Origin: Actinomycetospora sp. NBRC 106375 | GTDB lineage: Bacteria > Actinomycetota > Actinomycetes > Mycobacteriales > Pseudonocardiaceae | Reading direction: 5' to 3' | DNA length: 64,000 bases | Assembly: GCF_030269665.1 (NCBI RefSeq) | Contig: NZ_BSTS01000004.1 | Location: 62,001 to 126,000 of the forward strand | Shown here: positions 53,608 through 57,789 of the stretch, piece by piece | Numbering within the stretch: the first letter of the stretch is position 1 | How the letters are laid out: each line of letters opens with the position of its first letter | Made by a program: the position numbers and the translations under genes | The notes under the pieces: model-generated | Seen by the model: the letters and a program-made list of their open reading frames with translations, nothing else | The model's database searches: none | What the model was told of the DNA's origin: nothing

Positions 53608-54533
53608 CCGCCCCCTGGACCCGCCTGCGGACGGGCTGGGAGCGCTTCTGGTTCACGCCGCAGTCGACGGCGCCGGTCGAGGTGATCCGGATCGTGTTCG
53701 GGGTCGTCGCGACGGCCTGGATGCTCTCGCTCGCCCCCGTGCTCACCCCGTTCTTCGGCCCCGACGCCGCGATCCCGGACCGCCCGCGGCCCGCGCTCGC
53801 CTGGACCCTGATGACGCTGGTCGGCGGCACCCCGCTGATCTGGGTCCTGTGGCTGCTCGGCGTCCTCGGCGCCGCGGCGCTGACCGTCGGGTTCCGCACG
53901 CGGCTGGCGGCGCTGCTCGTCTTCGTCGTCATGGTGTCGGTGAACCGCCAGGCGCCGCTCGCGTTCAACGCCGGCGACGGGCTGATGCGCGTCATCTCCT
54001 TCTACGTCCTGCTGATGCCGGCCGGCTCGGCGGTCTCGGTCGACCGGTGGCTGGCCGACCGCCGGGGCGTCTGGAGCTTCCCCCGCCGCGCGCCGTGGGC
54101 GCTGCGGCTCGCGCAGATCCAGCTCAGCGTCATCTACCTCTCCACGGTGTGGGAGAAGTCCGGCGGCACCCTGTGGCGCAACGGCACGGCGGTGTCGTAC
54201 GCGATGCGCATCGGCGACCTCGAACGCCTCCCGGTGCCGTCCTTCGTCACCGACTCGATCCTGCTCACGCAGCTGGCGACGCTCGGGACGATCGCCGCGG
54301 AGCTCGCGATCGGCGTCCTCGTCTGGAACCGGGCCGCCCGGCCCTGGGTGCTCGCCCTCGGCGTGCTGCTGCACTTCTCGATCGAGGTGTCCCTGGCCGT
54401 CGGGTTCTTCGGCCTCGGGATGATGACGCTCTACCTCGCCTTCCTCCCGCCCGAGCGCGCCGAACAGGTCCTGCGCTGGGCGCGCGACCACCGTCCCCGC
54501 CGGCGCCGCCCGGTCGAGGCACCGGTGGCATGA
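53604..54533 (+). CDS. HTTM (vitamin K-dependent carboxylase-like) membrane protein
   Basis: A 309-residue HTTM-family protein: RFWFTPQSTAPVEVIRIVFGVVATAWMLSLAPVL, a conserved SVNRQAPLAFNAGDGLMRVISFYVLLMPAGSAVSVDRWL and AQIQLSVIYLSTVWEKSGGTLWRNGTAVSYAM, with six or so membrane helices. HTTM proteins are homologous to the membrane part of gamma-glutamyl carboxylase; bacterial roles are unknown. Operon with its upstream DUF5819-like and downstream glycosyltransferase-like genes (overlapping ends). Confidence 0.85.
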   Translation: MTAPWTRLRTGWERFWFTPQSTAPVEVIRIVFGVVATAWMLSLAPVLTPFFGPDAAIPDRPRPALAWTLMTLVGGTPLIWVLWLLGVLGAAALTVGFRTRLAALLVFVVMVSVNRQAPLAFNAGDGLMRVISFYVLLMPAGSAVSVDRWLADRRGVWSFPRRAPWALRLAQIQLSVIYLSTVWEKSGGTLWRNGTAVSYAMRIGDLERLPVPSFVTDSILLTQLATLGTIAAELAIGVLVWNRAARPWVLALGVLLHFSIEVSLAVGFFGLGMMTLYLAFLPPERAEQVLRWARDHRPRRRRPVEAPVA

Positions 54534-56254
54534 GCACCGTCGAGCTGGTCGGCGAGCAGACCCCCGCCGCCGAGACACCGACCGAGGACCGGCGCGGCGC
54601 GCCCCGGGACCGCGGCTTCGCCGCCGCGGTCGGCATCCCGACCCTCGTGCTCGCGGTGCACAGCGCCTCCTACGGGCCGTGGATCGAGGACGACGCCGGC
54701 ATCACGTTCGCCTACGCCCGGTCGATCGCGACGGGCGCCGGCCCCGTGCTGCAGCCCGGTGCGGAGGCGGTCGAGGGGTTCTCGAACCCGCTCTGGCTCG
54801 CGGTCCTCGTCGTCGGCCACTGGCTGGGGCTGTTCGACCACGGCGCCTGGTTCGGGCTCCCGGACCTCGTGCTCTTCCCGAAGCTCGTCGCCCTGGCCTG
54901 CGCCGCCGCGATGTTCGCGGTCCTGTACGGCCTGGCTCGCACCGTCTCCGCCCGTCCGGTCGCGCTCACCGTCGTCGCCGGCACGGTGACGGCGCTCGTG
55001 CCGTCGTTCGCGATCTGGACGACGAGCGGTCTCGAGAACGGGCTGTACGCGCTGCTGGTCGTGGCGCTCGGCGCGACCGTCGCGCGGGCCGCGGTCGAGG
55101 GCAGGCTCCTGGCCTCGCGCGTCGCGGTGGCGGCCGGGGCGCTGGCCGGCCTCGCGGCCCTGACCCGCCCCGACGGGCTGATCTACCTCGCCGTGTACCC
55201 GGTCGTCGCCGTGCTCCTCGCCGGGAGCGGGTGGCGCCGGGTCGTGACGCCGGGCCTCCGGTCCGTCAGCACGGCGCTCGTCCCGGTCGGGCTCTACCTC
55301 GTCTGGCGCCTGGTCACCTTCGGCGACTGGCTGCCGACGACCGCCCGAGCCAAGCGCCAGGAGCTCCCGGGGCCCGGCGACCTCGCGCGGCCCGGGGAGC
55401 TGGTCAGCTACGCCGGCTGGCTCGCCGTCGTGCTCGCGGTCGCCGCGGTCGCCCTGGCCCTGACGCAGCGCTCCCGGGTGCGGACCGCAGTGGGTGTCCT
55501 GCTCGTGCCGCTGACCCTGACGCTGGTCGTGTACGCGGTGCTGGCTGCTGACTGGATGGCGCAGTTCCGGTTCGCGACGCCGCTGTGGCCTCTCGGCGCG
55601 TTCGTCGGGGTCCTCGCGTTCGGAGACGTCATGGGCCGGTGCACCTCGCGGCGCGCCAGGGTCCTCGCCCTGCTGGCCGTCGCGCTCGCGGTCCTCGCCT
55701 CCGGCTCCGTGTGGCTGGACAACGCCGTCGGCTTCCGTCGCAATCCGACCGCGCCGATGTGTTTCGTCGCCACGAGCGTCGGCGAGCGGATCAACGCCTA
55801 CGCCGACATCCTGGGAGTTCGCGATGGCACGCTCGCTGCGGTCGACGGCGGCGGCACCGCCCTCACGAGCCGGCTGCGCTTCGTCGATCTCTCCGGGCTG
55901 GCCGATGCGCGCTTCGCCGAGTTGTGGCAGCGCAACGACACCCGCGGGGTCCGCGACCTCCTGTTCGACACCGTCCGTCCGACCTTCTTCAAGCTCGACA
56001 ACGGATGGTCTGGTACCGCGAGTTCTGGGCTGCTCAACGATCCGCGCCTGACTCGTGACTACGTCGTCCTCATCTCCACGCAGGCCGGCAGTGGAACCTG
56101 GGTCCGTCGTGACGTCGTGCCCGACGCGGGACACCTCGCTCTGGCGCGGGGGCACGCGACCGCGGGCTTCGCCGACGTCGACGCACCCTTCTTGCGCGGA
56201 CACCGCAACGCCTGGACGTGCGGCCCGACCCTGCGTACAGGTGAGGTCTCCTGA
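54530..56254 (+). CDS. GT39/ArnT-like polytopic membrane glycosyltransferase-like protein
   Basis: A 574-residue membrane protein with some nine to ten hydrophobic segments and a C-terminal soluble domain (residues about 430-574). The first loop IEDDAGITFAYARSIATGAGPVLQPGAEAVEGFSNPLW carries the Asp-Asp of GT-C glycosyltransferases (family with EGFSNPLW), and LTRPDGLIYLAVYP is another family motif. It probably uses a polyprenyl-linked sugar to glycosylate an exported substrate. It overlaps the HTTM gene by 4 bases. GC and codon use relax somewhat at the 3' end. Confidence 0.78.
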   Translation: MSTVELVGEQTPAAETPTEDRRGAPRDRGFAAAVGIPTLVLAVHSASYGPWIEDDAGITFAYARSIATGAGPVLQPGAEAVEGFSNPLWLAVLVVGHWLGLFDHGAWFGLPDLVLFPKLVALACAAAMFAVLYGLARTVSARPVALTVVAGTVTALVPSFAIWTTSGLENGLYALLVVALGATVARAAVEGRLLASRVAVAAGALAGLAALTRPDGLIYLAVYPVVAVLLAGSGWRRVVTPGLRSVSTALVPVGLYLVWRLVTFGDWLPTTARAKRQELPGPGDLARPGELVSYAGWLAVVLAVAAVALALTQRSRVRTAVGVLLVPLTLTLVVYAVLAADWMAQFRFATPLWPLGAFVGVLAFGDVMGRCTSRRARVLALLAVALAVLASGSVWLDNAVGFRRNPTAPMCFVATSVGERINAYADILGVRDGTLAAVDGGGTALTSRLRFVDLSGLADARFAELWQRNDTRGVRDLLFDTVRPTFFKLDNGWSGTASSGLLNDPRLTRDYVVLISTQAGSGTWVRRDVVPDAGHLALARGHATAGFADVDAPFLRGHRNAWTCGPTLRTGEVS

Positions 56255-56440: not shown

Positions 56441-57154
56441 ATGACGGGACAGACCTTGGCGCAGCGGGCACTCGTGCTCGGCGCGGGAGTGGTACTCATG
56501 GGATCGCTCGGCGTCGGTAGCGCCTCGGCGTGGTCCTACACGGGCGACACATGCGTGACGGTCGCCAGCACCGGCAACAGCTCGACCTACCTCGGCACCA
56601 CTAGCAGCACCGACTCCTCGAGCACCCTCACCACCGGGATCACGACCCTCCCGTCCACCGGGATCACCACGCTCCCCTCCACGGGGATCACCACGCTCCC
56701 CTCCACGGGGATCACCACGCTCCCCTCCACGGGGATCACCACGCTCCCCTCCACCGGGATCACCACGCTCCCCGCTTCTCTCGACCCGAGTGCCGGGGTG
56801 CCGAGCGACCCGGCGTCCGGCGGAGCGGGCGGATCAGCCGTCGAGACGCCCGCCGACAGCGGCGCGAGCGCGATAACGCCCTCGGGCGAGTCGGAGTCGC
56901 AGGGACTCCGTGCGGCGGCGGACACGACCACCGGGTCCTCGGACACCACTGGCACGACCACGAGCACGACCAGTTCGACGACCGGCCAGTCGACCACCAG
57001 CGTCACGACCGGCACGACGCCGCCGACGTACTCGACGGTCTGCTACTACCACCCGTCGACGGGTCACTACTACTACGACTCCCGGCCGGTCGGCACGATC
57101 TACGCGACGCAGGTCCGCCACGTGCCCTCCGGCGGCGTGGACACGGGTAACTGA
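56441..57154 (+). CDS. secreted Thr/Ser-rich protein with five tandem LPSTG motifs
   Basis: A 237-residue exported protein: signal peptide MTGQTLAQRALVLGAGVVLM...GVGSASA (cut near residue 30). Then come six 8-residue units GITTLPST (residues 66-113, last unit GITTLPAS) and a Ser/Thr/Gly-rich region. A C-terminal domain follows with Tyr-rich VCYYHPSTGHYYYDSRPVG. Each full unit creates an LPSTG sortase pentapeptide (residues 70-74, 78-82, 86-90, 94-98, 102-106), while the usual C-terminal hydrophobic tail is absent. The next gene, 2 bases away, encodes a class F sortase, so it is probably its substrate. GGAGAGAGG precedes the ATG. Confidence 0.85.
   Translation: MTGQTLAQRALVLGAGVVLMGSLGVGSASAWSYTGDTCVTVASTGNSSTYLGTTSSTDSSSTLTTGITTLPSTGITTLPSTGITTLPSTGITTLPSTGITTLPSTGITTLPASLDPSAGVPSDPASGGAGGSAVETPADSGASAITPSGESESQGLRAAADTTTGSSDTTGTTTSTTSSTTGQSTTSVTTGTTPPTYSTVCYYHPSTGHYYYDSRPVGTIYATQVRHVPSGGVDTGN
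56636..56779 (+). repeat. six 24-bp tandem units encoding GITTLPST
   Basis: Units start at 56636, 56660, 56684, 56708, 56732 and 56756. Units 3 to 5 are nearly identical (GGGATCACCACGCTCCCCTC with CACC or CACG), while the first and last diverge, the expected pattern of recent internal expansion by slippage. Confidence 0.9.
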
Positions 57155-57156
57155 GC

Positions 57157-57789
57157 ATGACGATCACCGAGGAGAAGAACCGCGAGGAGAAGACCTCCTC
57201 CGGTCCGTCGATGACCAACATCTCGATCGCCCTCGTGGTGATCCTGGTGGGGCTGGCCGTGATCGTCGGGATGAACTCGTCGTCCGGGTCCTCGTCGTCG
57301 AGCGTGAACTCGCCGGCACCGCTGGCCGCCGCGACGCCGACGCACGTGTCGGTGCCGTCGATCTCGGCGGACTCGAACCTGGTGGCGACCGGGCTGCAGT
57401 CCGACGGCAGCCTCGAGGTGCCGCCGGTGTCCCAGCCGATGCAGGCGGCCTGGTTCAACGGGAGCCCGACGCCGGGCGAGGTCGGGCCGGCCGTGATCCT
57501 CGGGCATGTCAACGGCGGCGGTCAGCCGGGCATCTTCGCGAAGCTGAACGAGGTCGTCGCCGGGGCCCAGATCCTCGTCGACCGCGCCGACGGCCAGCGC
57601 GCCGTGTTCCAGGTGTCGCGGGTCGACACGATCCCGAAGGCGTCGTTCCCGACCGACCAGGTCTACAACGACACGCCCAACTCCCAGCTGCGGCTCATCA
57701 CCTGCGGCGGGGACTACGACCGCGCCAACCGCAACTACCTGTCGAACGTGATCGTCTACGCCGACCTGGTCGACGTCCAGAGGATCTGA
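57157..57789 (+). CDS. class F sortase
   Basis: A 210-residue sortase: short cytosolic lead, membrane segment (ISIALVVILVGLAVIVGM, residues 22-39), Ser-rich linker, then the sortase barrel with SVPSISADSNLVATGL, catalytic His117 in ILGHVNG, catalytic Cys183 in RLITCGGDY and Arg at 189/192. The TC-G-G motif and GHVNG fit class F enzymes of actinobacteria, some of which accept LPXTG. It is directly downstream of the LPSTG-repeat protein (stop and start 2 bases apart), so the two form an operon on the cell surface. Confidence 0.88.
   Translation: MTITEEKNREEKTSSGPSMTNISIALVVILVGLAVIVGMNSSSGSSSSSVNSPAPLAAATPTHVSVPSISADSNLVATGLQSDGSLEVPPVSQPMQAAWFNGSPTPGEVGPAVILGHVNGGGQPGIFAKLNEVVAGAQILVDRADGQRAVFQVSRVDTIPKASFPTDQVYNDTPNSQLRLITCGGDYDRANRNYLSNVIVYADLVDVQRI

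Follow-up and report, generated by a model that had tools for sequence, protein, structure and literature searches.

A secreted Actinomycetospora protein with an LPSTG repeat array as a probable tailless substrate of its neighboring class F sortase

The P0001/P0002 locus and its repeat array

The window analyzed here, a stretch of 64,000 nucleotides from Actinomycetospora sp. NBRC 106375, contains a pair of genes encoding a secreted protein, P0001, and a class F sortase, P0002, with the sortase gene starting 2 nt past the P0001 stop (Table 1). Upstream of the pair are a gene for an HTTM-domain protein (PF05090; 53604-54530) and a gene for a protein of about 570 amino acids that matched no Pfam family (region scanned, 54533-56251). 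As judged by eye, several relatives in the genus show similar upstream genes, the HTTM gene included.

Table 1 Features of the P0001/P0002 locus, with positions counted from the first nucleotide of the window
Feature	Position	Strand	Basis
Secreted protein P0001 (237 aa), candidate tailless substrate of a class F sortase	56441..57154	+	ORF, orthologs, motif
N-terminal signal peptide of P0001, residues 1-30	56441..56530	+	Sequence; cleavage site by eye
Tandem array, six 24-bp units GITTLPS(T/A), five LPSTG	56631..56773	+	Repeat finding, translation
Predicted beta hairpin preceding the motif, P0001 residues 196-217	57026..57091	+	AF2 model
C-terminal PSGGVDTGN: candidate recognition motif for the sortase, one further residue, stop	57125..57151	+	Motif conservation, sortase association
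Class F sortase P0002, 210 aa, N-terminal hydrophobic segment, His117 and Cys183	57157..57789	+	Profile, alignment, model

A sequence-only reading of the window had described six near-identical 24-bp repeats forming five exact LPSTG pentapeptides, and both translation, which places the pentapeptides at residues 70-106 and ends the sixth unit in LPAS, and Tandem Repeats Finder (period 24, 6.0 copies, 95% matches, 0 indels) confirmed this description, the array being the top-scoring one in the window (244, with the next at 82). The same reading was right that P0001 is secreted and lacks a C-terminal membrane tail: the protein begins with a signal peptide of the Sec type (cleavage placed by eye between ASA and W31), continues after the array with a Thr/Ser-rich stretch, ends in HVPSGGVDTGN, and has no hydrophobic segment 3' of the repeats. 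P0001 does not qualify as an LPXTG cell-wall anchor, which would need LPXTG at the C-terminus together with a membrane segment and a basic tail, and the Pfam and NCBIfam scans assigned it to 0 families. Shuffling of the linker yielded a mean of 0.03 LPxTG versus the 5 observed, and a random 8-residue unit of linker composition contains LPxTG with p of 0.0013-0.0016; all five LPSTG derive from one amplified unit. The array is real and beyond trivial expectation, yet it represents a single event in a single lineage. Most of the AF2 model of P0001 has low confidence (whole-model pLDDT 45.5), and the predicted hairpin, with pLDDT of 54, 75, and 64 for the ten-residue blocks from residue 191, is its sole structured part at low to moderate confidence. 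The varied repeats suggest that the body of the protein is a surface spacer.

The further claim that the adjacent gene encodes a class F sortase was borne out by the match of P0002 to the NCBIfam class F model NF033748 (192 bits; cut-off 166). His117 and Cys183 are invariant across an alignment of 39 sequences, in which neither candidate for the catalytic Arg (R189, R192) is invariant. At 57721-57732, after TCGG, the residue able to supply the catalytic Arg is Arg, Lys, or His among the genus orthologs. The AF2 model of P0002 has pLDDT >=90 for 130 of 210 residues, and all 50 Foldseek matches listed for this model were sortases; phmmer returned 0 matches for P0002 among PDB sequences. The profile search gave 11 class F sortase matches in the window genome. 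The secreted, tailless P0001 and the class F enzyme P0002 are very likely substrate and enzyme.

Conserved ends, variable linker, and the C-terminal motif in Actinomycetospora

The gene pair is present in 15 of 18 genus genomes; the three without it (G004, G008, and G013) are each <90% complete, and G008 contains a partial sortase with 76% identity to P0002. A family search with an alignment of the C-terminus recovered the protein in 15 of 249 genomes, all Actinomycetospora (1 of 46 genera, E <=0.001). Among the eight nearest orthologs, P0001 included, mean identity is 80% in the signal region (32 residues), 34.5% in the middle, and 85.5% over the C-terminal 38 residues. Columns invariant across the 15 orthologs are two Tyr, Gln-Val, and P-x-G-G-V-x-T-G, after which the proteins end within 1-6 residues (TG-N in eight, TG-DGSFQ in six, and TG-DGSYGP in one). 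The spacing from the substrate stop to the sortase start ranges from -4 to +19 nt in the 15 genomes, and the sortase frame relative to that of the substrate is +2 in 11, +1 in 4, and 0 in none. The linker units differ among orthologs (14 LPTTD, IPGLTE, TLPTLP, DPAADTPLDD, TSGS, and GTDG), and LPxTG is present in a single ortholog, with the sortase kept by the other 14. As judged from these alignments, the LPSTG array is part of a hypervariable Thr/Pro-rich repeat linker between conserved ends.

These counts bear on the proposal, made in the sequence-only reading, that the LPSTG pentapeptides are serial cleavage sites, and that orthologs lacking both the sortase and the repeats would speak against it. 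The proposal is not supported, given that 14 of 15 orthologs keep the sortase without LPxTG; of the anticipated double loss, the disappearance of LPxTG was found and that of the sortase was not. That reading made no mention of the C-terminal GGVDTG, the candidate site that is conserved.

In the window genome, the PxGGVxTG pattern has 8 matches at the DNA level, and the 5 that are in frame in ORFs >=50 aa all lie just upstream of class F sortases. Across the 18 genus genomes there are 140 matches, compared with 35 for the reversed pattern. Using 150 of the 153 class F matches reported, 63 of these 140 were located 153-825 bp 5' of a same-strand class F domain, with 0.39 expected (a formal p value overstates this excess, since the orthologous loci are not independent); on the 3' side, no match fell within 2 kb. 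Each of the 63 is read in frame and sits at the C-terminus of its protein: in 48, the motif is followed by 33-57 residues that include a hydrophobic stretch and basic positions (tailed), and in 15, every one from the P0001 locus, by 1-6 residues (tailless). C-terminal LPxTG occurs in 0 of these 63 proteins and internal LPxTG in 2, both in the window genome (4 of the 63 frames are incomplete at a sequence edge). The other 77 matches are not near a class F sortase, and most seem to be chance occurrences; 8 of them, however, are the ends of tailless proteins, so the pairing of motif and sortase is not strict.

Several additional proteins in the genus are worth recording. A tailed class F partner in the window genome with a weak Excalibur match (L021:624-1307) has an internal LPDTG, and LPxTG can therefore arise in such linkers. 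A second tailless family (L293-L303), found in 11 genus genomes, consists of small proteins that have a membrane segment at the N-terminus and variants of PxGG(V/I)ETGDGSTP at the C-terminus; they are not near the listed class F places. Two proteins (L223, L242) resemble the second group of the P0001 locus and end in PKGGV(D/N)TGDGSFR, with no adjoining sortase in the stretch examined.

Tailed and tailless partners of class F sortases beyond the genus

Outside Actinomycetospora, 53 of 67 class F loci have an adjacent same-strand C-terminal-membrane protein bearing the motif (23 in strict and 30 in loose form), 12 have no such membrane protein, and 2 have another one; neither LPxTG nor LAxTG appears in any of these adjacent tails. 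In the same loci, the strict motif is found in 24 of 69 upstream C-terminal-membrane ORFs versus 1 of 138 elsewhere, and the looser motif, with weaker contrast, in 33 of 69 versus 24 of 138 background ORFs.

Partner ends were then classified at 90 class F loci of other Pseudonocardiaceae genera (30 plus the next 60 among the matches listed outside Actinomycetospora), a sample that leans to high scores because it was drawn from among the matches listed. The upstream partner is tailless in 39 and tailed in 47, and the other 4 comprise 1 substrate-sortase ORF, 2 loci with a tailless protein downstream only, and 1 with no partner seen. A script classed 75 loci (43 tailed, 32 tailless), and 15 were read by hand, giving 7 tailless and 3 tailed upstream partners, plus L352 (tailed), L343 (fused), L330 and L376 (tailless protein downstream only), and L393 (none seen). 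Tail length is 4-15 or 33-45 residues in the script-classed loci, tails of 23-32 residues without a membrane segment falling outside the script classes. In the script-classed set, a Gln-(Val/Ile/Met/Thr) pair lies a short way ahead of the motif in 32 of 32 tailless versus 27 of 43 tailed partners. At the 90 loci, ORFs with the motif <=22 residues from the end account for 33 of 180 upstream versus 6 of 1043 other ORFs; of these 6, 5 lie 3' of the sortase on its strand. Chance occurrence of the motif is rejected by the genus expectation together with the 67-locus and ORF-end controls. Domain scans of 7 tailless partners from the family identified Excalibur repeats in 1, choice-of-anchor P in 1, and no named domain above cut-off in 5.

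On a tree of 148 sortases (63 from the genus and 85 of the 90 from the family, with L330, L343, L352, L376, and L393 left out), tail state requires 15 changes, compared with a mean of 44.2 and a minimum of 37 in 300 shuffles. One all-tailless group of 17 joins the 15 Actinomycetospora sortases with L323 and L325 from one other genus. On this phylogeny, tail state follows the sortase tree, which indicates linkage and not the number of origins because the tree is quick and the genomes are related.

In many of the class F sortases examined (L323-L412), the N-terminal hydrophobic segment ends in a lipobox-like LxGC. By a simple pattern, with a few matches outside the segment, LxGC was detected in 25 of 32 sortases beside tailless partners, 27 of 43 beside tailed partners, and 11 of 15 at script-unclassed loci; the sortases bearing it may be lipoproteins. 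The window sortase P0002 has no LxGC Cys. At L343, a reverse-strand frame of 358 residues contains an Excalibur-like region, PEGAVDTGDGS, a hydrophobic segment ending in LGGC, and a sortase domain, an apparent substrate-sortase fusion in which an internal GTG start is possible.

Proposed mode of attachment and relation to known systems

We favor, with a probability of roughly 0.7, the interpretation that P0001 is a tailless class F substrate attached via its C-terminal GVDTG, with LPSTG being incidental to the linker; the attachment signal is probably the last nine residues and not the LPSTG row. The observations comprise gene order, motif, conservation, tail state, and class F association, and such conservation and adjacency argue for partnership, not for anchoring as such. 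Recognition, cleavage, acceptor, timing, and the inertness of LPSTG are what we infer for this pair. P0001 and P0002 would form a dedicated sortase-substrate operon, from which P0001 would be exported by Sec and lose its signal peptide. The adjacent sortase would then recognize the C-terminal PSGGVDTGN, form a thioester at the Thr of GVDTG with release of Gly-Asn, and transfer P0001 to a wall acceptor. Since no membrane tail holds the precursor, capture would take place during or just after export, beside the sortase, and part of P0001 would probably be released into the medium. The repeats would constitute a fast-evolving Thr/Pro/Ser-rich spacer in which LPSTG would have arisen by accident in this species.

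There is precedent for a short tail. AbpA, which ends in LPKTS-AVK beside SrtB, loses function upon deletions of its end, GFP reaches the wall in end-swap constructs, and AbpA itself, despite its 3-residue tail, was found in the wall and also in the medium (PMC4974636, excerpt). A membrane tail is not chemically required, because SrtA builds a synthetic LPETG substrate into the wall of Staphylococcus aureus (PMC3929722, abstract). As counterpoints, the excerpted part of a review states that sortases recognize LPXTG and that the Cutibacterium acnes class F enzyme behaves much like SrtA (PMC7913060), and quadruple class F deletion in Actinoplanes missouriensis had no phenotype in the assays used (PMC13251363, excerpt). 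In view of the former, P0002 may conceivably cut LPSTG in addition.

It is very unlikely that the LPSTG array provides working serial sortase sites, yielding fragments, release of the C-terminal domain, or chains. Five exact LPSTG do adjoin a sortase, a unit of eight residues with LPxTG has a chance probability of only ~0.0015, the likeness of the C. acnes enzyme to SrtA (PMC7913060, excerpt) would fit such sites, and the close ortholog with 14 LPTTD keeps LPxT. Nevertheless, LPxTG is missing from the C-termini of all 63 genus partners and from the adjacent membrane tails at the 67 outside loci (12 without such a protein), Gram_pos_anchor (PF00746) has 0 matches in the window genome at E 0.001, and the lack of LPxTG in 14 of the 15 orthologs led to the rejection of serial processing as the main reading. 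The absence of a tail could also mean that P0001 binds the sortase via GVDTG without becoming anchored, as a trimmed exoprotein, a competitor, or a sortase regulator, and both the unexplained retention of a protein without a membrane tail and the keeping of tails by 48 genus partners are in line with this. We judge it unlikely, although less so than serial cleavage: tailless and tailed proteins share the upstream slot and the motif, the domain variety in the 7 tailless partners is more cargo-like than would suit one regulator, and AbpA reaches the wall with its 3-residue tail (PMC4974636, excerpt).

Finally, an assembly error, a truncation, or a frameshift into the sortase gene could create a falsely tailless P0001, and the short distance between stop and sortase start in the 15 genomes, the hydrophobic first segment of P0002, and the single ORF at L343 would all agree with such an artefact. 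Tailless ends recur, however, in each of 15 genomes of the genus and at 39 of 90 other-genus loci, and tail lengths in the 75 script-classed loci form two separate ranges (23-32 without membrane segment being unclassed), making an artefact extremely improbable; a tail supplied by frameshift was rejected on the frame relation, which differs between genomes and is never 0.

Attachment of tailless P0001 through GVDTG would have a wider bearing. The main finding here is a proposed tailless C-terminal signal that recurs with dedicated class F sortases; the tailed form is already known to curators, as NCBIfam has a GVDTG sorting domain model. At somewhat better than even odds, Pseudonocardiaceae, and perhaps other actinobacteria, have a second anchoring mode in which dedicated class F sortases, many of which appear to be lipoproteins, capture tailless soluble proteins that carry P-x-G-[GA]-[VAP]-x-T-G followed by a few last residues, with no membrane-held precursor. 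If true, this could explain overlooked substrates of many class F sortases, which the usual rules detect poorly, and tailless proteins would be missed by membrane-tail screens; a C-terminal membrane anchor would not be a general requirement for sortase substrates. Short C-terminal tags serve sortase ligation, and the tailless pairs would be their natural counterparts. The proteins encoded next to two class F genes in A. missouriensis were disregarded for want of a known pentapeptide (PMC13251363, excerpt). A search by motif letters found no paper on the GVDTG motif among the matches listed (preprints and most subscription journals not covered), the one in PMC4049620 being, in the excerpt, a pilin's N-terminal peptide; the titles and opening lines of abstracts among the matches listed included AbpA but no tailless class F substrate.

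P0001 resembles LPXTG wall proteins (PF00746, TIGR01167) in its signal peptide and the sortase beside it, and differs from them in that LPSTG is internal and repeated, the protein is tailless, and a different C-terminal motif is conserved. P0002 is by name of the same sortase class as SrtF of C. acnes, but SrtF is the sole sortase of that species (PMC7913060, excerpt), whereas the window genome has its 11 class F matches and partners with GVxTG. Like AbpA/SrtB of oral streptococci, the pair is a two-gene locus of a secreted protein, with a motif and a very short tail, and its own sortase; unlike that system, with its sortase B and LPKTS, P0001 ends in GGVDTGN beside a class F enzyme (PMC4974636, excerpt). 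Anchoring of AbpA is experimentally supported (PMC4974636, excerpt), whereas that of P0001 is proposed from sequence. The closest curated relative is the "GVDTG sorting domain" of NF058571 (GVDTG_CTERM; 44 positions, cut-off 29 bits), matched above cut-off in 16 of 18 genus genomes and, among 9 tailed neighbors, by 2 above and 5 below cut-off, with 2 unmatched. In contrast to the tailed end of that family, P0001 has one residue after the motif, no membrane segment or basic tail, and 0 matches to the model, and two other tailless proteins match only its positions 1 to 13-15, below cut-off; P0001 is not filed as a member because it has no membrane tail and no family match. Still, P0001 shares the G-V-x-T-G core after P-x-G near the C-terminus and an adjoining class F sortase, and may work like a GVDTG sorting domain protein.
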